A DNA stretch of 38,710 bases from Desulfocapsa sp. (lineage in GTDB: Bacteria > Desulfobacterota > Desulfobulbia > Desulfobulbales > Desulfocapsaceae), in contig JAFLJS010000048.1 in assembly GCA_022712895.1 (NCBI GenBank), positions 1-38,710 on the forward strand, read 5' to 3'. The stretch's first letter is position 1; every line of letters begins with the position of its first letter. Below, piece by piece: positions 4,970-25,754 of the stretch. Position numbers and translations under genes: made by a program. The notes beneath the pieces were generated by a model. The model did not search any database, was not told where the DNA came from, and worked only from the letters and a program-made list of their open reading frames with translations.

Positions 4970-5740
4970 ATGAAAATTAAATCATTGTGTTTGTTACTTT
5001 CTTTTGGTGCTATGGTCGTAGTTGCTTCAACAGCTTCTGCCGTTGTTTTTACTGGAAGTGCTACGGGCTCGTGGCATGATGTTCAGAGTAACAACTCTAA
5101 CGATCTGTATGGAATTACAAATAATGATGGCGGCCCAGCCTTGAGTGATGAGTCACTTTTCTGGTGGGGTGATCCCTATACTGGCACGATTTGGGATACG
5201 GGCTCAACCAGGAATGAGTTTAATTTCAATGGAGCTGGTAGTAATTGGGATGAAAGTGCTGGTACTGGAACCCCTGGGTATATGGACACTAGTATTAACA
5301 ATCGTTTTCTACTGGGTTGGTTCACCTATGTGAATGGTGACGTTTGGCTGGCAGATGGTGTTGCTGGTGTCGAGCTCGCTGTTGATGTATATATCTCTCA
5401 GTTAGGGTCTACTTTTAGCCTGAATAATATTTTTGAGATTACTAATACAGATAATAGTACGGGTGATCCAGTTCTTGATGGTGATATCGTAACGTCGGTA
5501 GGTGGAAATCTTTCGAAAAGATTTGATTATGCTGGTGTAACATACCAGTTTGATATAATCGGTTTTTCTCAAGATGGCGGAAGTACGGTTACCAATAATT
5601 TTAGCAGTCCTGAAAACAGTGGTACTGGAGCAGGGTTATATGCAGAGATAAATCCTGTGCCTGAACCAGCCACAATGCTCCTCTTTTTTACAGGTCTTGC
5701 TGGACTTGTTGGAGTAAATAGCAGGAGGAAGAAAAAATGA
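4970..5740 (+). CDS. PEP-CTERM sorting-domain surface protein
   Basis: A 256-residue exported protein with a Sec signal peptide (KIKSLCLLLSFGAMVVVAS, likely cleaved after STASA near residue 24). The mature region is rich in Gly, Asn, Asp and Ser with beta-type repeats. The C-terminus has the full tripartite PEP-CTERM signal: NPVPEPATM, a hydrophobic stretch LLFFTGLAGLVGV, then the basic tail NSRRKKK. Such tails are recognised and removed by exosortases, and the proteins usually associate with the EPS matrix. No exosortase gene is in this window, so it must be elsewhere. The mature domain's function is not recognisable. Its stop codon overlaps the start of the lasso precursor gene. Confidence 0.9.
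   Translation: MKIKSLCLLLSFGAMVVVASTASAVVFTGSATGSWHDVQSNNSNDLYGITNNDGGPALSDESLFWWGDPYTGTIWDTGSTRNEFNFNGAGSNWDESAGTGTPGYMDTSINNRFLLGWFTYVNGDVWLADGVAGVELAVDVYISQLGSTFSLNNIFEITNTDNSTGDPVLDGDIVTSVGGNLSKRFDYAGVTYQFDIIGFSQDGGSTVTNNFSSPENSGTGAGLYAEINPVPEPATMLLFFTGLAGLVGVNSRRKKK
5723..5728 (+). promoter_or_regulatory. Ribosome binding site of the lasso precursor
   Basis: A perfect AGGAGG lies inside the last codons of the PEP-CTERM gene, 8 bases before the ATG at 5737. It supports 5737 as the start over the later in-frame ATGs at 5740 and 5758. Because ATG and TGA overlap as ATGA, the peptide is probably made by coupled or re-initiating translation. Confidence 0.85.
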
Positions 5741-5943
5741 TGTCGGAGAGAAAAGTAATGTCTGCCACAGATAGTCAGGATACGAAAAAGGAAGGATCGT
5801 TGGCGACATATTCTACGCCTCGTCTGGTACGATTTGGTTCAGTTATTGAATTAACAGCTGGATGTCCAGGGTCTGGCTCTGATAGCGGGGGGCCTGGTAA
5901 CAGTGCTCCTTATGGCCCTGGTGGAAGTTGTGGCACTACTTAG
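5737..5943 (+). CDS. Putative lasso peptide precursor
   Basis: A 68-residue peptide with a lasso-type leader: Y25-STP28-R-L30-VRFG34-SVIELT40, matching the family pattern YxxPxLxxxGxxxxLT. Thr40 occupies the conserved penultimate leader position, so cleavage is predicted after Ala41. The core would then be residues 42-68 (27 residues). It starts GCPGSGSD, giving Gly1 and an acidic Asp8 suited to an 8-residue macrolactam ring. The tail is Gly/Pro/Ser-rich, with one bulky residue (Tyr18), Cys24 and a Thr-Thr end. Cys2 and Cys24 could form one ring-to-tail disulfide, as in class III lassos. The synthetase, PqqD-like and kinase genes lie immediately downstream on the other strand. Leader and context are strong; the ring, disulfide and product are inferred. 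Confidence 0.8.
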   Translation: MMSERKVMSATDSQDTKKEGSLATYSTPRLVRFGSVIELTAGCPGSGSDSGGPGNSAPYGPGGSCGTT

Positions 5944-5985
5944 TGCTTTATTGTAGTTTCTCCCCTTCCCTTTTTACAGAAGCTT

Positions 5986-6034
5986 CAGGTAGAGTTGATA
6001 GTGTCTAGCTATCGACTTTACCTGTTGTTGTTTT
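5986..6034. terminator. Shared bidirectional terminator between precursor and synthetase genes
   Basis: CAGGTAGAGTTGATAG (5986-6001) pairs with CTATCGACTTTACCTG (6009-6024) at 14 of 16 positions, the remainder allowing G-U pairs, around a 7-base loop. TTGTTGTTTT follows on the + strand. The synthetase stop codon (6005-6007) lies inside the loop. It separates two convergent transcripts. Confidence 0.82.
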
Positions 6035-7897
6035 AAGAACATTCTTGTACCACACCTCCACTGCGTAAACCATCCATAATTCCCAATTGTTGTGTCCTAT
6101 TGAGTATTTATCTGCTTGGAAGTGATTGCGTTTCTTTGCTATCTGCCTTAATAGCTTTCCATGATCGATCCAGCCTGCTTGAGCAATAGTCATATCTTCA
6201 GTTTCTTTAATAAACTTTTCGCTATGGAATGTTTTACCAAAAAAGTATGAAAAGTCAGCCTTACTATGCCTTGTTTGCAGTCGCTTTGGGAGTAGTGGGT
6301 TGTCTTGATGGCGTAGTAGTCTTTTTGTGATGCCACAATATTGGTGCTGGTACTCTGGAATGGAGATTGAAAACTCAAGCATTCTACGGTCAAGGAATGG
6401 GGAACGATATTCAATGCCACGAAGTGCATGGTAGCGATCCATTGTTTCTAAAAAAAATTGTTCGGCACCAGAGCTTATAACTTTGGAAATCAAAAATGAG
6501 CTTAAATTTGACAGAGGCAGGCGTGGATCAACATTTTCAAATTGTTTGTAAAGGTGTGTTGTTTGAATGAATTCATCAGTTAGCCAGTCCGCGTTGATAT
6601 GATAGCTCTTTTTGCATAGGGCTCTTCGTAATTTGATGGGAACGGCTGGCCACAGCAAGTTAATTAGAAAACGCTTCAAAGCATAAGGTTTGTTGTAGGA
6701 GAGCGAGAAACGTAGCTGTGAAATGAGGGCGCTATATTTTTTATCTCTAAGCAGGTCAAGGTAAGGGTATCCAGATCCGGTAAACCATTCATCTCCACCG
6801 ATTCCAGAGAGCAACACCCTTGAGTCACTGTTACAAACCTCACGAACCAATGCGTCTCGCATCACGATATTTGGTATATCTGGTGGTTCAAAGGTAACCA
6901 TCGTTTGTTGAAGGCCCATCGGTTCAGTGAAGTGTTGTGATTCAACATGTTGAACGGAGTGTCCTAAGTACGAAGCAACCAAGTTAATATAGTGAGACTC
7001 GTCGAATTGAAGATTCGGAAAAGTCATCCCGAATGTTTTTAATTCTGGTTGTTTACGTCTATCCAGGATCTTGCATGCCATTGCAACAACAGAAGAGGAA
7101 TCAAGTCCTCCACTGAGTTCCGCACTTACTCTGGTATTGCATCGTAGGCGGCATTCGACTGCCTGCTCAAAAATATGTAGAAAGTGTTCTGTGTAGCTCT
7201 TACTTTTTGAGTAGTAAATTTTGTTTTCAGTATTAAGTGACCAGTATTCCTTTTTTGTAAGACCCTGCGGTGAGATTTTTAAATAATGCCCGGGAGAGAG
7301 GCGTTGGATATGTCGGAAGAGTGTTTCAGTTTTGCTACAGAATGAGAATGAAAGGTATTCTGCAACCATTTTTTTATTTGTATCAAGTTGTATCTCTGGA
7401 TGTTCAGCAAGTTGTTTTATTTCAGAGCTGAAAAGGAATTTTGTTGGAGAGTAATGGTAATAAAATGGCTTAACACCAATATAGTCTCTGACACATAGCA
7501 ACACCTGCTTGGATGGATTCCAGATGACGAACGAAAAATCCCCAAGAAGATGAATGAAGCTTTTAGTACCCCATTTAATATAAGCAGCAAGGATTAGTTG
7601 ACTGTCTGATGTAGTGACTTGTGGCCGTAGGTTCAATTTGTCGAAGAGTTCACTACGATTGTCGATTCTGGCATCTGCCGTAATTACTAATCCATGAGTC
7701 GGATGGGTGTATGGGGACTGTTCATGAGTCGATTCAGGAGTGGTTTGAAGCATACTGTGCCCGAGGCCGATAAAGTCATGACTGATGGTTTTTGTTCCGT
7801 CTGGACCCCTGTGAGCGATTGAACTGGCCATTTTTTGTAGATGAATTGTATTAATCGCTTGTCTGTCAGGGTGATAGATGCCGAAAATTCCACTCAT
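6005..7897 (-). CDS. Asparagine-synthetase-like lasso macrolactam synthetase (C protein)
   Basis: A 630-residue AsnB-family protein: N-terminal Ntn glutaminase-like domain (about 1-190) and C-terminal ATP-pyrophosphatase domain with PP-loop LSGGLDSSS (261-269). In true glutamine-dependent enzymes residue 2 is the catalytic Cys (MCGI). Here it is Ser (MSGIFG), so glutamine hydrolysis is not expected. This fits lasso cyclases, which adenylate the ring Asp/Glu side chain and let the core N-terminus attack it. The GDFSFVIW and RSPFLDRRMLEFS blocks are preserved. The start overlaps the kinase stop by 4 bases, and it is the last gene of the operon. An ordinary asparagine synthetase is a less likely alternative given Ser2 and the neighbours. 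Confidence 0.85.
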   Translation of the reverse strand: MSGIFGIYHPDRQAINTIHLQKMASSIAHRGPDGTKTISHDFIGLGHSMLQTTPESTHEQSPYTHPTHGLVITADARIDNRSELFDKLNLRPQVTTSDSQLILAAYIKWGTKSFIHLLGDFSFVIWNPSKQVLLCVRDYIGVKPFYYHYSPTKFLFSSEIKQLAEHPEIQLDTNKKMVAEYLSFSFCSKTETLFRHIQRLSPGHYLKISPQGLTKKEYWSLNTENKIYYSKSKSYTEHFLHIFEQAVECRLRCNTRVSAELSGGLDSSSVVAMACKILDRRKQPELKTFGMTFPNLQFDESHYINLVASYLGHSVQHVESQHFTEPMGLQQTMVTFEPPDIPNIVMRDALVREVCNSDSRVLLSGIGGDEWFTGSGYPYLDLLRDKKYSALISQLRFSLSYNKPYALKRFLINLLWPAVPIKLRRALCKKSYHINADWLTDEFIQTTHLYKQFENVDPRLPLSNLSSFLISKVISSGAEQFFLETMDRYHALRGIEYRSPFLDRRMLEFSISIPEYQHQYCGITKRLLRHQDNPLLPKRLQTRHSKADFSYFFGKTFHSEKFIKETEDMTIAQAGWIDHGKLLRQIAKKRNHFQADKYSIGHNNWELWMVYAVEVWYKNVLKTTTGKVDS

Positions 7898-8856
7898 ATC
7901 TTATGGATCGCTCGTTGGTGTTCTATCGTTGTGATAATTTTTTCTACAACCATTGGCAACGACTCTTTTTTTCGGGGATAGGCAAGTTTGAAAAATAGAG
8001 GACCATTAGAATTCATAAGATTGGCGAGATTGGTGAACTGGTTTTTCGTTCTTGTTTTATCCGTTATATCCAGTGGAAAACAGTTCTTGATCATTTCAAT
8101 GATACCGTTGGCTTTTGATATCGGTGTCGTTGAAATGGTCTGGTCGTCTGATCGAGTTATCGGGTCATCTAAAATAAATATTGCAGATATTGAAACAGAG
8201 CTAGCTGCATTATGATTAGAAATTGGTACACGCTTTTTGGATCCGTAATGGGCAACTGCGATGGCTGAATCTTTTTTATTTGGCAAGAGTGTTAGGCTAT
8301 CAGCAAGAAGTCGAAGGCTAGTATAATTCGGTGTTCCAGATACGACATTATCGTTATTTTCAAGGAGTAAACAATCGTCTGTGACAAGAGAATATCCCTG
8401 ACTATAGAAAAAAGCGGCAAGAGTTGATTTACCCCAGCCGGATTCGCCACAGAATGCGATGGCAGATGAACCAATTCGAATGCAACTGGCATGAAGTATT
8501 ATGTTGTCTTGATGGCTGAGTAGTCGTGGAATAGCTTGGTCAAGGAGAAGGTGACAAATAGTAGAGTCAGGGATTTGTGATTGTCGGTAACAGATGATTT
8601 GATTGCTTTTGGGCTTGAGCAGAAAGTCAGCAAGTTGAGGAAAACGTAGCCAGTAGTTGCCTTTCTCTTTACCAACTGAAATGCTGATCTGGCCATCTTT
8701 AAGTCGCCAATGGTGGCACCATTCAATATGGGTTTCAGGACACTCGACAATTGGTAAGGACAGGAAAAAAAGGGTAGGTGGCGTATGGCTATCAGCTTGT
8801 AACTCTGGAAGCTCGATATTGCTCTCTATGGTGTGATTAAAAATTGAATAGTTCAA
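7894..8856 (-). CDS. HPr-kinase-like protein, putative peptide kinase
   Basis: A 320-residue protein with an HPrK C-domain-like P-loop, GESGWGKST (137-145), followed by LVTDD (157-161) with the acidic pair expected of this kinase fold. The roughly 120 N-terminal residues do not resemble the HPrK regulatory domain. Relatives next to lasso genes (for example in the paeninodin locus) phosphorylate the C-terminal Ser of the precursor. Related proteins also accompany PqqD-like genes in exosortase-associated loci. The candidate precursor here ends in Thr-Thr, so Thr would have to be the acceptor. It lies 24 bases after the PqqD-like gene and overlaps the synthetase gene by 4 bases. HPr phosphorylation is unlikely. 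Confidence 0.8.
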   Translation of the reverse strand: MNYSIFNHTIESNIELPELQADSHTPPTLFFLSLPIVECPETHIEWCHHWRLKDGQISISVGKEKGNYWLRFPQLADFLLKPKSNQIICYRQSQIPDSTICHLLLDQAIPRLLSHQDNIILHASCIRIGSSAIAFCGESGWGKSTLAAFFYSQGYSLVTDDCLLLENNDNVVSGTPNYTSLRLLADSLTLLPNKKDSAIAVAHYGSKKRVPISNHNAASSVSISAIFILDDPITRSDDQTISTTPISKANGIIEMIKNCFPLDITDKTRTKNQFTNLANLMNSNGPLFFKLAYPRKKESLPMVVEKIITTIEHQRAIHKI

Positions 8857-8880
8857 TTCTTTTGACTCCGAGAAACGATG

Positions 8881-9162
8881 TCAGGTTTCAGTCAGAATGA
8901 TAAGCCCGGAATTAAGCAACTCCTGAAAGAGATCACAAATATCTTTCTCCAGCTCTTCTCTCCCAACATTAAATTCTTCCAGGAGTATAACTGTCACATT
9001 GTTTATGTTGTTTCCAGATTGTAATATTTCAATTACACGACTTCCAACATCGTTGAGACCAAAGTAGTTCTCACTTTTAATATCAAGCAGAATGGATTCC
9101 CCGTCAATTTCCTGGCTGAGAACCTCTTTTGACAACTGGAAGATTTGTTCTTTACTAATCAT
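8881..9162 (-). CDS. PqqD-like RiPP recognition element (lasso B1 type)
   Basis: A roughly 93-residue protein with the PqqD winged-helix pattern: a basic/acidic strand SQEIDGESILLDIKSENYFGLNDVGSRVIE, then helices ending in DLFQELLNSGLIIL. Such proteins bind the RiPP leader (its YxxP and Leu/Gly residues) and deliver it to the maturation enzymes. The frame is open up to a TTG at 9201 that overlaps the permease stop. I chose the ATG at 9162 because the domain begins there, but neither start has a strong ribosome site. Discrete B1 proteins normally pair with a B2 protease, which is not seen here. Confidence 0.85.
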   Translation of the reverse strand: MISKEQIFQLSKEVLSQEIDGESILLDIKSENYFGLNDVGSRVIEILQSGNNINNVTVILLEEFNVGREELEKDICDLFQELLNSGLIILTET

Positions 9163-9197
9163 ATTTTGTAGTTCAGCTAGAAGGAGAAAAATGGATA

Positions 9198-10022
9198 TCA
9201 ATAATGGAGCAAGGAACCTTCTTTTTTTGCAATCTTGAGTCCATAATATATGGAAACCACACCTGTTGCCAGGGAAAAAATAGATAGAACGGCCAGAATG
9301 AGCAACTGTTGACTGATATCTGTAATTCCTGCACCATTCAAGAGGACTTGTCGTATTGCCTCTAAGCCATGGGTGATTGGGAGAACAACCGAAAAAGGCT
9401 TAAGCCAACCAGGTAATAGGGATACCGGATACATTACACCACCCAGTAATCCGGAACTCATCGCCATTAAACCTCCAATTGGATTGCCTTGCTTAAAGAC
9501 AATTATAAAGGCGGCAGAGACAAGCCCAAGGCCAAAAAAAGGGAGTAATGTAAGTATGAATGCGGAAATTAATGCAAAAATATTCAAAGGTTGCAGGAGC
9601 ATCCCGAAGACAAAATATCCGATGAAAATATAAAACAGAATGCGAAAACTGGTTGAAAACAGTTTGTAAAAATAGGATGAGAGAAGAATCGTAAGAATGG
9701 AAGTCGGAGTCACAAGAAGAGACTCAAGGGTACCAACCATTTGCGAGGTACGAATCTCCGTGGAAAAGGCACTGGTAGAAATAGTGAAATAATCAGTGAG
9801 CGCTATCCCAATCAATACAAAAGAAAAATAATCACCACCGTATGGTTCAAGCTCAGTTATCGCATTCCCGGCAAACAGTTTTGAAAGAAGAAAAAAAGAA
9901 AAAGTGGTGAGGATAATACCAAATCCTTGGCTAGCGTATTGAAGGCGGTAGCTGGTTGCCGTTTTGAAATCACGCTTGAAAAAGGCAATTGGTTTAGCAA
10001 AGGATACTTGTTTGGATATCAT
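9198..10022 (-). CDS. ABC-2 type transporter permease
   Basis: A 274-residue membrane protein with about six hydrophobic segments after a cytoplasmic N-terminus (MISKQVSFAKPIAFFKRDFKTATSYR). It has the ABC-2 layout seen in polysaccharide, drug and peptide exporters, including a Gly-rich segment SGLLGGVMYPVSLLPGWLKP. It overlaps the upstream ATPase gene by 4 bases and meets the PqqD-like gene, so it is probably part of the RiPP unit as an exporter. Many lasso loci instead use a fused MsbA-like D protein, so this split ABC-2 type is a variant. Export of an EPS or lipid substrate cannot be excluded. Confidence 0.85.
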   Translation of the reverse strand: MISKQVSFAKPIAFFKRDFKTATSYRLQYASQGFGIILTTFSFFLLSKLFAGNAITELEPYGGDYFSFVLIGIALTDYFTISTSAFSTEIRTSQMVGTLESLLVTPTSILTILLSSYFYKLFSTSFRILFYIFIGYFVFGMLLQPLNIFALISAFILTLLPFFGLGLVSAAFIIVFKQGNPIGGLMAMSSGLLGGVMYPVSLLPGWLKPFSVVLPITHGLEAIRQVLLNGAGITDISQQLLILAVLSIFSLATGVVSIYYGLKIAKKEGSLLHY

Positions 10023-10846
10023 ATTGACTTCTTCCTTGTAAGGGCGATCTCTGCGTCTGTAAATGGTGCATTTTGAGAAAAGCTTACAAGGGCACTGAAT
10101 GCTTGTTCGATATTTTGGGATTCGGAGATTGATATCTCATCTAATTTGCCAGTGTACAGTACCTTGCCTCTATGCAAGATAGTTACACGGTCGCAGATAT
10201 CTTCAGCTTCATGTAAATTATGTGTACACCATATAATTGTCTTTTGTTCTTGTTTGGCAAGAGTTTCATTTGTGAAGTTCAGCAGCTTTCTTCTCGCAAT
10301 GGGATCTAGGCTGGTCGTGGCCTCATCCATCAGTAGAACTTCGGGGTCTGCGAGCATTGCCCGTGCTATGGCCAAACGCTGTTTTTGTCCCGAAGAGTAA
10401 GACATAAATCGTGATTCCGCTTTGTCTTCCATGTCAATGAGTTGCAGTGATTTTTCTATTTGTTTCGTTTTCTTTGTACCACGTAAGTTGTAAAGTGTGG
10501 CGAAAAAGTCGAGGTTCTCACGTCCACTGAGTCGCCAGTAAAAAGTCCGGTCATTGGTGCTGACCATTCCGATTTTATTTCTTATGGCAAGGGATTGTGT
10601 GGCCAGAGACAGGCCGGAGATTGTACCTTCACCACTGTCAGATGTTACCAACGTTGAAATAATCTTGAGAAGTGTTGTTTTACCAGCACCATTTGGGCCA
10701 AGCAATCCCATGATTTCCCCTTTTTTAACAGTGAGGGAAACATTGTCAAGAGCCAGTGTCTGGACGGGTTTACGAAATAGAAGTGTCTTCCAGTTCCGTT
10801 CGGTGAAAGTTTTGGAGATATCTTTGAGTTCAATTGCTGGAGGCAT
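10019..10846 (-). CDS. ABC transporter ATP-binding protein
   Basis: A 275-residue ATPase. Walker A is GPNGAGKTT (50-58), the signature is SSGQKQR (151-157), Walker B is VLLMDEATTSLD (170-181), and the H-loop follows in WCTHNL. It resembles the DrrA/NatA-like group that pairs with ABC-2 permeases, and its permease partner follows with a 4-base overlap. The start lies 3 bases after the cysC stop. It presumably energises export of the RiPP or a small envelope substrate. Confidence 0.9.
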   Translation of the reverse strand: MPPAIELKDISKTFTERNWKTLLFRKPVQTLALDNVSLTVKKGEIMGLLGPNGAGKTTLLKIISTLVTSDSGEGTISGLSLATQSLAIRNKIGMVSTNDRTFYWRLSGRENLDFFATLYNLRGTKKTKQIEKSLQLIDMEDKAESRFMSYSSGQKQRLAIARAMLADPEVLLMDEATTSLDPIARRKLLNFTNETLAKQEQKTIIWCTHNLHEAEDICDRVTILHRGKVLYTGKLDEISISESQNIEQAFSALVSFSQNAPFTDAEIALTRKKSI

Positions 10847-10849
10847 GGA

Positions 10850-11455
10850 TTATTGTAAAATAATACCTCGTTCGCGCAGCTCATTGATAATATCATTTAC
10901 GCAGTCCCGTAAGGGGCGGGTACCAGTGTTAAGCTCAATATCCGGATTCTCAGGTGCTTCGTAGGGTGATGAGATTCCAGTGTAATTTTTAATCTTTCCC
11001 TCACGTGCTTTTTTATATAATCCTTTGACGTCCCGTTTCTCACAGATTTCAAGGGAGCAGTTGCAGTACACTTCAAGCAGGTTCTCAGCTCCTATTATTT
11101 CCTTGACCTTATCACGATCCGCCTTGAGTGGCGAAATGAAAGCAGTGAGCGAAAGTACACCGCAATCAAGGAATAGTCCTACCATTTCTGCAATTCTTCG
11201 CATGTTTTCACTACGATCGTTAAGGGAGAAACCAAGATCTCCACAAAGACCATGGCGAACGTTATCTCCATCAAATACATAGGTGCGGCAGCCCATCAGG
11301 TGAAGACGTTGTTCAACGGCGTGGGCCAAGGTTGATTTCCCGGAACCGGAAAGGCCAGTGAACCAGAGATTTATACTCATGTGTCCATTCTGAGTTTCGC
11401 GGCGAGGACGGGTAACAGCAGCTTGATGTCTGATCACGTTTGGAGAGTGGCTCAT
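10850..11455 (-). CDS. cysC: Adenylyl-sulfate kinase
   Basis: It phosphorylates APS to PAPS, the sulfate donor for sulfotransferases. Its 201 residues include the typical CysC leader (NVIRHQAAVTRPRRE), the P-loop GLSGSGKST (34-42), the FDGDNVRHGL segment, the FISPLKADRD loop and the GLYKKAREGKIKNYTGI segment. The start at 11455 is supported by that leader; a second ATG lies at 11380. It sits 9 bases after galU and 3 bases before the ABC ATPase gene. No sulfotransferase is visible in the window, so the PAPS user (sulfated EPS, lipid or the RiPP) is unknown. Confidence 0.92.
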   Translation of the reverse strand: MSHSPNVIRHQAAVTRPRRETQNGHMSINLWFTGLSGSGKSTLAHAVEQRLHLMGCRTYVFDGDNVRHGLCGDLGFSLNDRSENMRRIAEMVGLFLDCGVLSLTAFISPLKADRDKVKEIIGAENLLEVYCNCSLEICEKRDVKGLYKKAREGKIKNYTGISSPYEAPENPDIELNTGTRPLRDCVNDIINELRERGIILQ

Positions 11456-11464
11456 GGTGAATCC

Positions 11465-12331
11465 TTAGCAGAACATCTTTTTTAGATATGGAAGCAGTGT
11501 GTCTTTGATTTCAGGGTGCTCAAGGGCAAAGGCAATATTTGCCATCTGGAAACCGGCCTTGTCTCCGCAGTCAAAACGGGTGCCTTCAAAACGATAGCCA
11601 AAAATAGGTTGTTCCTTAAGGAGTTGAGACATCGCATCTGTGAGCTGTATCTCACCACCTGCTCCACTTGCCTGCTGGCCAAGGATCTCGAAAATACGTG
11701 GTGTGAGGATATATCTACCAATTACAGCCAGGTTAGATGGTGCTTCGTCAGCGGGTGGCTTTTCAACCATGCCACGAATTCGGAACGTATCTTCTGTTGA
11801 ATTGTCTGCGTCGAGTATGCCGTAGCGGAACGTATCTTCTTTGGGGATTTCAATCGCAGCGACGGTAGATGCTCGAACCCTATCGTATTGAAGCATCATT
11901 TGATGGAGAACAGGGGTTTCACTTTTAATAAGATCATCAGCCAGTAATACGGCAAAGGGCTCATCTCCGACAATATCTCTTGCACACCAGATGGCATGAC
12001 CCAAGCCAAGTGGTTCGCTTTGTCTTGTGTAGATAATGGTCCCAGATTTAGGGACCAGTGATTCAATTTCTTTGAGAAGCTCAAATTTTTCTCGTTTACG
12101 AAGAGTCTCTTCAAGCTGGAAGGAACGATCAAAATGGTTTTCTAGGGCTCCTTTTCCACCACCAGTCACAAATATAAGATGTTCAATACCTGAGGCCAGC
12201 GCTTCTTCTACGGCATACTGGATAAGTGGTTTGTCAACAACAGGGAGCATTTCCTTGGGCATTGCTTTGGTAGCCGGAAGGAACCTAGTACCAAGTCCTG
12301 CTACTGGAAAGACAGCTTTTTTGATTTTCAT
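11465..12331 (-). CDS. galU: UTP-glucose-1-phosphate uridylyltransferase
   Basis: It makes UDP-glucose for EPS and envelope glycans. From the ATG at 12331 it has 288 residues, starting MKIKKAVFPVAGLGTRFLPATKAMPKEMLP, the classic GalU N-terminus with the nucleotide-binding GLGTRFLPATK loop. The PLGLGHAIWCA, VLLADDL and GTRFDCGDKAGFQ segments are intact. The frame is open up to 12403, but AAGGAT just upstream supports 12331. It is the first gene of the operon that ends in the lasso synthetase; the shared transcript links sugar-nucleotide supply with the RiPP and transport genes. Confidence 0.95.
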   Translation of the reverse strand: MKIKKAVFPVAGLGTRFLPATKAMPKEMLPVVDKPLIQYAVEEALASGIEHLIFVTGGGKGALENHFDRSFQLEETLRKREKFELLKEIESLVPKSGTIIYTRQSEPLGLGHAIWCARDIVGDEPFAVLLADDLIKSETPVLHQMMLQYDRVRASTVAAIEIPKEDTFRYGILDADNSTEDTFRIRGMVEKPPADEAPSNLAVIGRYILTPRIFEILGQQASGAGGEIQLTDAMSQLLKEQPIFGYRFEGTRFDCGDKAGFQMANIAFALEHPEIKDTLLPYLKKMFC

Positions 12332-12399
12332 AGAGATCCTTTGAACAATAGAATGCCATATTGATGAAGCGCCGAACCCCGTTTGGAATGATGTACCTA

Positions 12400-12427
12400 T
12401 CAATAAAGAGGGTTCTTAAAAAGTCAA
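12400..12427 (-). promoter_or_regulatory. Possible sigma-70 promoter of the galU operon
   Basis: On the - strand TTGACT (12427-12422) is followed after 16 bases by TATTGA (12405-12400), about 70 bases before the galU start. The -10 box is a weak match. The -35 box touches the left edge of repeat copy 2. Confidence 0.35.
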
Positions 12428-12579
12428 AACAGGGATGGATTTATAAGAAATTCATATTCTAGGCTCACCTGTATCCTTTTTTCGGGTGTAAAAATAAAAA
12501 TATTTTAGCGTACTCATGTACGTCGAAATGATTTTATTTTTATAGCACGAAGAAGATGAAGAGTTTTTATATATCCATT
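12427..12579. repeat. Dispersed imperfect palindromic repeat, copy 2
   Basis: It is homologous to copy 1 at 8-140. The left flank shares AACAGG-GATGG and TTCATAT with AGGC further in. The core CGTAC-TCAT-GTACG lies at 12509-12522. The right flank shares CGAAGAAGATGAAGAGTTTT with one mismatch. Arms around the core (12489-12543) pair imperfectly and are AT-richer than in copy 1. It lies between the divergent galU and foldase-like genes. It does not encode a transposase. Confidence 0.78.
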
Positions 12580-12742
12580 AGGTATTTTAGTGAAAATTTA
12601 TCAAACAAGCCACTATTAAAATTTCTAATCCTGAAGTAAATAGGTATAAAAATCTATTTCGAAAAAAAAACTTGCTATTACCCGCTAACTTACGTTCTTA
12701 TTATAGTAAGAATTGTTAAACCTTTCACCATCAGGAAAACCT

Positions 12743-24503: not shown

Positions 24504-25754
24504 TTAGCCGAATTGTCTTTGGCTAGGTTTGTGTAATATTATTTTTATCCCTTCCCAGCCCAATCGAAAGGGACGGATTAGATAGTGGAGTAAGTAAAGG
24601 TTCGCAGGCAATGGGTGGCGTTGCCAGTCATAACGGGTAGGGGTGAAAATCAGTCTCAATGCATATCGGATAGTCAAAAGCGGGTTATCCATACTGAGTA
24701 GATGATATTTCATGAATCGGTGGCTGACAAAATCTGATGATGATTGTGTAGAGGAGAGCAAACTCAAGGCTATTTGCTGTGCCAGTTTAATTGCTCGTGG
24801 ATCTTCTTGAAGGCGTATCGATATGTGCTCAGGTATGACGATATCAAATAGATCCTGTGTTAAAAGCAACCCTATAAAAAGCATTCGTAAGCCGCTGTAT
24901 TTTGAAGCTGTCAGAAAAACAGCAGACCAGTCAATATTTTGGTTTTTAGTTATCAAGGCGGCAAGACAACAGACATGATCTAACTGCTTCCAGGTATGTT
25001 GGTTACCATGGACACAGAGATAAAAGAGAAGATCTTCATCAGAAAAAACAGTTATAGGTTCATCACCTATTTCCATCGTTTTGTGATTTACGAACAGATC
25101 ATCAAAAGTCATTTGAGAAGGAAAGTATCCACCGCTGATCTCCCATTGGAGGTCGAGGGTGATTCCGTTCGTTTTGTGTATTAACGGGAATTCATTATCC
25201 GTTTTGGAAAGTTTTTGCAATTGTTGATCGTTTAATGGAAAAACAGGCAGGAACCCCTGAATGGCAAGAATCTGAACAGCATGTATTAGATGTTGCCGTT
25301 GGATAAGTACATCAATATCACCAAAAGTACGTAGAGCAGAATTCCCATACAATGTAATGGAAAGAACGGGGCCTTTGAACGGCATAGCTGGTATATCATG
25401 CTTTCTCAGAAGTGATAAAACACGAGTCAGATATCCGGTCATCAAAAGATTTCTGGCACCGTTGTTTCTGTAAATATGTTTTCCTTGATTCAACAATTCC
25501 TGTGGGACAGAATCAGAACAATATTTACGTAAATTTCTATACACCAGTGGTAATACACGATGCTGCATGGCAAGTTCATAAAAATCATGCCATTTATTTT
25601 GCTTACGACACAGCTCATTTAGCAGGTTAACTTGTCTGGGGGACAAAGTCTCTCTAGCGCAGAGAATGATTATTTCCAAATCCACTGGCCAATTTTCCGT
25701 GCTGGTTTCATCCATAGCGTCCACGGGTAAGGTCTGAGTCCATTTATTTTCCAT
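24504..25754 (-). CDS. Nucleotidyltransferase-family protein (NTP_transf_5-like)
   Basis: A 416-residue protein of the uncharacterised nucleotidyltransferase group. It has the lead-in LEIIILCARETLSPRQ, then KGPVLSITLYGNSALRTFGDIDVLI, where GNSALRTFGDIDV gives the GxxxxRxxxDxD-type active site. Histidine and acidic residues follow in HGNQHTWKQLDHVCC. Members recur in EPS/exosortase and lasso loci, but their substrate is unknown. The first ATG overlaps the upstream glycosyltransferase by 85 bases. An ATG at 25715 or a GTG at 25685 (16-base overlap, GGAAAA upstream) may be the real start. Confidence 0.75.
   Translation of the reverse strand: MENKWTQTLPVDAMDETSTENWPVDLEIIILCARETLSPRQVNLLNELCRKQNKWHDFYELAMQHRVLPLVYRNLRKYCSDSVPQELLNQGKHIYRNNGARNLLMTGYLTRVLSLLRKHDIPAMPFKGPVLSITLYGNSALRTFGDIDVLIQRQHLIHAVQILAIQGFLPVFPLNDQQLQKLSKTDNEFPLIHKTNGITLDLQWEISGGYFPSQMTFDDLFVNHKTMEIGDEPITVFSDEDLLFYLCVHGNQHTWKQLDHVCCLAALITKNQNIDWSAVFLTASKYSGLRMLFIGLLLTQDLFDIVIPEHISIRLQEDPRAIKLAQQIALSLLSSTQSSSDFVSHRFMKYHLLSMDNPLLTIRYALRLIFTPTRYDWQRHPLPANLYLLHYLIRPFRLGWEGIKIILHKPSQRQFG

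Follow-up and report, generated by a model that had tools for sequence, protein, structure and literature searches.

A predicted lasso-peptide locus in Desulfocapsa sp. with its probable leader peptidase encoded on another contig

We analysed contig JAFLJS010000048.1 of the Desulfocapsa sp. assembly GCA_022712895.1 over 38,710 nucleotides (hereafter the window) and found that positions 5737-10846 very probably constitute a lasso-peptide biosynthetic locus, served in trans by a B2 leader peptidase. The parts of such a system are present and conserved, and the genome's sole B2 gene is unlinked to them. Novel in this locus are the unlinked peptidase, a core peptide with Cys2 and Cys24, and a partner gene for a PEP-CTERM surface protein. 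A first-pass annotation had described a 68-residue lasso-type peptide with a core opening GCPGSGSD beside genes for an AsnB-like synthetase with Ser2, a PqqD-like protein, an HprK-like protein and an ABC-2 exporter; all of these are in place, and an open reading frame (ORF) check of the window recovered every ORF of that annotation at its position.

The C-terminal portion of the 68-residue ORF reads YSTPRLVRFGSVIELTA up to the leader/core boundary and GCPGSGSDSGGPGNSAPYGPGGSCGTT beyond it, the core ending in Thr-Thr. Two hallmarks of lasso precursors are found in this ORF and in its homologues from four relatives: the YxxPxL...G leader with Thr at position −2 (Tyr, Gly and Thr conserved in five of five), and a first core residue able to cyclise onto Asp or Glu at positions 7-9, here Gly1 with Asp8 (again five of five). 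Throughout the 3.68-Mb genome, the ORF is the only match to the lasso_leader_L3 model above its cut-off, by a narrow margin. The four relatives come from a sample of 193 genomes of the order (labelled G with a number; loci are labelled L and contigs C), 20 of which hold a cyclase at E ≤ 1e-60; wide loci were examined for 17 of these, leaving out G181, G183 and G192. The cyclases closest to that of the window (G041, 56%; G012, 51%; G167, 45%; G128, 38%) form one clade with it (SH-like approximate likelihood ratio test 100, quick tree), and no further cyclase passing 1e-95 was found among 257 genomes of the class. A homologous precursor lies beside related AsnB, PqqD and HprK genes in all four relatives, as the lasso reading had predicted, and Gly1, Gly4, Ser5 and Asp8 are invariant in all five clade cores. 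The precursor does lie on the strand opposite its presumed enzymes, as first annotated, but this arrangement is not unique: it recurs in G041 and G012, and the two genes share a strand in G167 and G128.

For a wider view we assembled 74 non-redundant lasso loci, comprising the window, 20 loci from relatives and 53 from named contigs. The contig scan returned 56 loci when run with a cyclase alignment and none with a single cyclase sequence; three of its loci (L077-L079, on the same contigs as L034-L036) were dropped from the counts and retained among 332 background ORFs. A leader model identified 51 precursors in 44 of the 74 loci, and cyclase homologues adjoin precursors in 44. Of the 51 cores, 42 carry an acidic residue at position 8 or 9 and one at position 7. 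Kinase genes occur in 60 of the loci, PqqD genes in 59, B2 genes in 54 and NTP_transf_5 genes in 32 (the window included).

The AsnB-like protein begins with MSGIFG, and in NCBIfam it is matched best by NF033535, the model for cyanobacterial lasso cyclases, with asparagine synthase behind (265 bits of 267). Position 2 among 73 cyclase homologues is Ser in 51, Cys in two, Gly in one and unreadable in 19. An ordinary asparagine synthetase was rejected, the genome having a separate AsnB-like gene on contig C58 (28% identity, MCGIVG start, in a sugar locus). The PqqD-like protein (B1) has its best PDB matches in TbiB1 and TfuB1, both lasso recognition elements, in agreement with its first annotation as a recognition protein; it scores under the lasso PqqD cut-offs of NCBIfam (49.8 vs. 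80 and 47.1 vs. 70). The ATG at 9162, where that annotation ended the gene, is internal to the PqqD ORF and a possible alternative start. The kinase keeps the His-Lys-Asp-Asp residues reported to be important in lasso kinases (PMC9266682 and PMC10368454), and among 56 homologues His, Lys and the first Asp are kept in all and the second Asp in 54; a PDB sequence search with the kinase gave one weak match (3tqf, E 0.0097).

By analogy with relatives, the precursor would be made from a dicistron with the PEP-CTERM surface protein, opposite in strand to the enzymes, and its YxxPxL...G leader would be bound by B1. The HprK-like kinase would phosphorylate the precursor, B2 encoded on contig C12 would act with B1 to cut after Ala41, and the cyclase would close a Gly1-Asp8 ring about the tail. 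A class III-like disulfide could then form between Cys2 in the ring and Cys24 in the tail and take the role of bulky plugs, and the ABC-2 pump would export the product. The lasso peptide probably carries a phosphate, and a disulfide may lock it. Its calculated neutral monoisotopic mass is 2264.87 Da as the plain lasso, 2262.85 Da with the disulfide and 2342.82 Da plus phosphate.

The known phosphorylation sites are core Ser3, for BsfK, and the C-terminal Ser, for PadeK-type kinases (PMC10368454, PMC9266682); residue 3 is Pro here, so that Thr27 and Ser5 become the candidate sites, either of which could be an acceptor new to such kinases. Thr27 corresponds to Thr in four of the five clade cores, the exception being that of L035, and Ser5 is present in all five. 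Among 50 precursors from kinase loci, the last residue is Ser in 20 and Thr in five (25 in total), vs. 53 of 332 other matched ORFs with either residue at the end. In six kinase loci (L083, L086, L127, L081, L088 and L093) the precursor core ends in Cys-Leu. Since precursors ending in Leu are also accompanied by a kinase, a C-terminal acceptor is not general, and a C-terminal Ser is impossible in those cases.

The ring-to-tail disulfide proposed in the first-pass annotation gains from a second core with the same cysteines, although the bond itself is still a prediction: the G041 precursor (locus L033) has the core GCAGSGADSGTYSESSFIGPDGSCQST, of 27 residues, with Cys2 and Cys24 as in the window. 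With its Gly/Pro/Ser-rich composition, such a core would give one of the rare lassos that have a disulfide from ring to tail. An alternative lasso lacking this bond, in which both cysteines remain reduced or form intermolecular bonds and the thread is held by Tyr18 or by a phosphorylated tail (class II), is unlikely but deserves to be taken seriously. Three of the five clade cores lack Cys2/Cys24 (those of G167 and G128 have no Cys, and that of G012 has Cys14 and Cys17), and the cluster has no disulfide-forming enzyme; yet the L033 core shares both Cys positions and the length despite a different mid-core, and several lassos form disulfides without dedicated genes (PMC9266682).

No B2 leader peptidase gene lies within the window. 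The genome's only Transglut_core3 match is a 152-residue B2 on contig C12 (L002, 9228-9686), which scores 91.4 bits against NF033537 (cut-off 33) and keeps Cys85 and His122, conserved in 54 of 54 and 53 of 54 homologues, respectively; a PDB sequence search with it returned no match. Judged from the contig ends, at least about 45 kb separate its gene from the precursor. The first-pass reading of the locus as a lasso system is supported, with the correction that the locus is incomplete alone, the peptidase that would cut the Ala41-Gly42 bond being encoded on another contig. Every one of the 20 genomes whose cyclase reaches the above threshold also holds B2. Five genomes of the same genus lack such a cyclase, and four of them lack B2; the fifth, G160, retains one. 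At the genus level, the lasso locus occupies a slot between glnA and cysC-galU, and G160 has kinase, B2, PqqD and exporter genes in that slot (L133, about 8487-12720), with neither a cyclase nor a precursor found in the locus; L133 is a decaying lasso locus.

This B2 probably acts in trans on the window precursor, because it is the genome's sole B2 and lies on another contig, because B2 and cyclase are about 435 kb apart in the single 4.3-Mb contig of G178, and because two relatives, G079 and G096, have three cyclases each vs. one B2 each. The G178 B2 gene and an adjoining exporter ATPase gene (together L196, 7379-9637) lie inside a polysaccharide locus. G041 has a second lasso locus (L142, 6405-9234, and L141, 1444-1662) with another cyclase type, a kinase and a precursor; neither B1 nor B2 lies alongside, and the whole G041 genome holds a single B2. 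In the B2 tree, the Desulfocapsa sp. B2 clusters with those of G041, G012, G227 and others (100/99), and those encoded within the G167 and G128 clusters belong to a different clade (98/91), where the long G128 branch is placed unsurely. These separate clades suggest that the peptidase was exchanged and relocated while the cyclase stayed in place.

Of the 33 loci in which the cyclase has 4 kb or more of flanking sequence on each side, eight have no B2 nearby, so that its absence is not rare. That proportion and the absence of B2 from the cluster would also suit a lasso made without B2, by another protease or by leaderless processing, with the C12 gene a relic or used otherwise; pseudomycoidin is made without leader and leader peptidase, according to a title cited in PMC9266682. 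We consider this improbable, given that the C12 gene encodes the only B2 of the genome, has its Cys and His intact, stands alone at a site of its own, flanked by an lptE-like gene and tkt, and has counterparts in all 20 cyclase genomes tested. We found no description of an unlinked lasso B2 in the literature searched. Genome mining looks for lasso enzymes side by side, and real systems with an unlinked or outnumbered peptidase, as here and in relatives, may be missed or discarded.

Several points weigh against the assignment of the locus to a B2-served lasso system with the steps given above. The lasso_leader_L3 cut-off is passed by two of the five clade precursors (window, 19.6; L034, 22.9), that of L035 lies slightly below it (18.9), and those of L033 and L036 have no match at E ≤ 0.01. 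The cyclase is under the NF033535 cut-off (451 vs. 525), and the kinase, a remote HprK relative, is far under all HprK cut-offs. The 42 training sequences of the leader model came from the surveyed loci themselves, so that the survey count is descriptive and not a test, and in eight of the 51 cores positions 7-9 lack an acidic residue. With the cyclase and B2 genes on separate contigs, their co-expression is at most an expectation. The invariance of Ser5 may reflect a need of the ring, the C-terminal Thr is absent in L035, and Cys2/Cys24 occur in two of the five clade cores. Ring, thread, disulfide, phosphate and every other chemical step are predicted from relatives. That AsnB, HprK and PqqD are instead exopolysaccharide or exosortase machinery (XrtA amidotransferase, HPr-rel-A), with the 68-residue ORF incidental, is hardly credible: the rest of the window is a polysaccharide region with PEP-CTERM and there are weak matches to TIGR03108, TIGR04352 and TIGR04353, but these are all far under their cut-offs (229/817, 44/200 and 14/35 bits, respectively), on which both enzyme identities were rejected, and B1 matches lasso recognition elements and the precursor is conserved along with the enzymes. 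Mobile spread was likewise rejected, as the cyclase has no relative in viral contigs and the precursor none in plasmids.

The ATG of the precursor overlaps the TGA of the PEP-CTERM gene at 4970-5740 (ATGA). Nine PEP-CTERM ORFs came out of a motif scan across the 74 loci (955 kb). Each sits −3 to 1216 bases away from a lasso precursor, and all belong to the 21 loci from the order of the window: the pairs are those of the five clade members, G147 (29 bases, on another cyclase branch), G140, G162 and G178. By locus, PEP-CTERM genes adjoin precursors in the window, L033-L036, L039-L041 and L049. A profile scan of 14 genomes gave 0-13 PEP-CTERM matches each; a PEP-CTERM gene lies beside the precursor in seven of the nine cyclase genomes among them, the exceptions being G096 and G079. 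Under uniform placement within each locus, the proximity of PEP-CTERM gene and precursor has p values of 0.0004 to 0.14, which should not be multiplied, five of the cases being syntenic, and which overstate the significance because genes cannot overlap. The choice_anch_K domain is common to the PEP-CTERM proteins of the window, G041 and G012 only; the other four scanned have the sorting signal alone, and the L041 and L049 assignments rest on the motif. The pairing may reflect a preference, shared by both genes, for surface-polysaccharide islands. A more far-reaching proposal, which we would rather bet against, is that lasso peptides and PEP-CTERM proteins of Desulfobulbaceae form functional pairs, here by translational coupling, with the protein as carrier, receptor or self-protection partner; the peptide would act on the polysaccharide surface of its producer rather than diffuse away as an antibiotic, and a single peptidase would serve several unlinked lasso systems in trans. 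A literature search poor in subscription papers found no description of a lasso peptide with PEP-CTERM or exosortase. The natural role of lasso peptides is largely open, and the pairing offers a testable lead on that role in polysaccharide-matrix bacteria.

The enzyme genes are ordered ATPase, permease, PqqD, HprK and AsnB, and are convergent with the precursor. The inverted repeat between the convergent transcripts (5986-6024) is a possible two-way terminator; pattern scans of the scanned region showed no excess over shuffles for terminators (5 sites vs. 5.3 expected) or promoters (12 vs. 15.1). The NTP_transf_5 family is frequent in kinase-bearing lasso loci, and the Desulfocapsa sp. genome has two copies; the protein encoded at 24504-25754 is a possible unlinked tailoring enzyme, a weak assignment.

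Table 1. Features of the window, with strand and supporting matches (cut-offs in brackets where given)
Feature	Position	Strand	Support
PEP-CTERM surface protein, 256 aa, choice-of-anchor K domain	4970-5740	+	NF038131 55.9 bits (30); TIGR02595 26.5 (16); PF07589 27.3 (20.7)
Lasso precursor, 68 aa	5737-5943	+	NF033521 (lasso_leader_L3) 19.6 bits (19); alignment with four relatives
Leader, residues 1-41 (YSTPRLVRFGSVIELTA), Thr at −2	5737-5859	+	Y25, G34, S35, T40 invariant in 5/5
Core, 27 residues, Cys2 and Cys24, C-terminal Thr, Gly1/Asp8 ring predicted	5860-5940	+	G1, G4, S5, D8 invariant in 5/5
Inverted repeat, 17-bp stem, between convergent transcripts, overlaps cyclase stop codon	5986-6024		fold z −6.3
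Lasso cyclase, AsnB-like, Ser2 instead of Cys2	6005-7897	−	NF033535 451 bits (525); PF00733 137 bits; clade of five beside precursors
HprK-like peptide kinase, H122/K143/D160/D161	7894-8856	−	TIGR04352 44 bits (200); PF07475 25.1 (33.3); catalytic residues
B1, PqqD-like recognition element of ribosomally synthesised and post-translationally modified peptides	8881-9201	−	PF05402 48 bits; PDB TbiB1 5v1u E 1.1e-10, TfuB1 6jx3 4.3e-7
ABC-2 exporter permease	9198-10022	−	PF01061 50 bits
ABC exporter ATPase	10019-10846	−	TIGR01188 207 bits (312, below); PF00005 113 bits
NTP_transf_5 nucleotidyltransferase, polysaccharide region	24504-25754	−	PF14907 193 bits

The locus had been called unconventional, which is partly right, but both kinase-bearing lassos and class III disulfide lassos are known (PMC9266682, PMC10368454). 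Kinase-bearing clusters are described for paeninodin (PadeK), ThcoK, SyanK and pseudomycoidin (PsmK), and for BsfK of Bradymonas (PMC9266682, PMC10368454). As in these descriptions, the system has a split B1, a separate B2, a cyclase and an HprK-like kinase with His-Lys-Asp-Asp, and several of those clusters also have a nucleotidyltransferase, as the window has an NTP_transf_5 gene. It departs from them as described in that the core ends in Thr and has Pro at residue 3, without the C-terminal Ser of the paeninodin type, and in that B2 is unlinked, the ABC-2 exporter has two genes and the precursor gene has a coupled PEP-CTERM partner. With the class III lassos BI-32169 and 9401-LP1 it shares one ring Cys and one tail Cys (PMC9266682, PMC13352647), and with BI-32169 also Gly1 (PMC4289311). 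Unlike those peptides, the predicted product has 27 residues, is Gly/Pro/Ser-rich and would combine a Cys2-Cys24 bond with a Gly1-Asp8 ring, and the locus has a kinase, whereas the descriptions seen of the BI-32169 and 9401-LP1 clusters mention none. In citrulassin, too, an enzyme that the product requires is encoded elsewhere in the genome, but there the enzyme outside the cluster is a tailoring deiminase, whereas here it would be the leader peptidase itself (PMC12971885).

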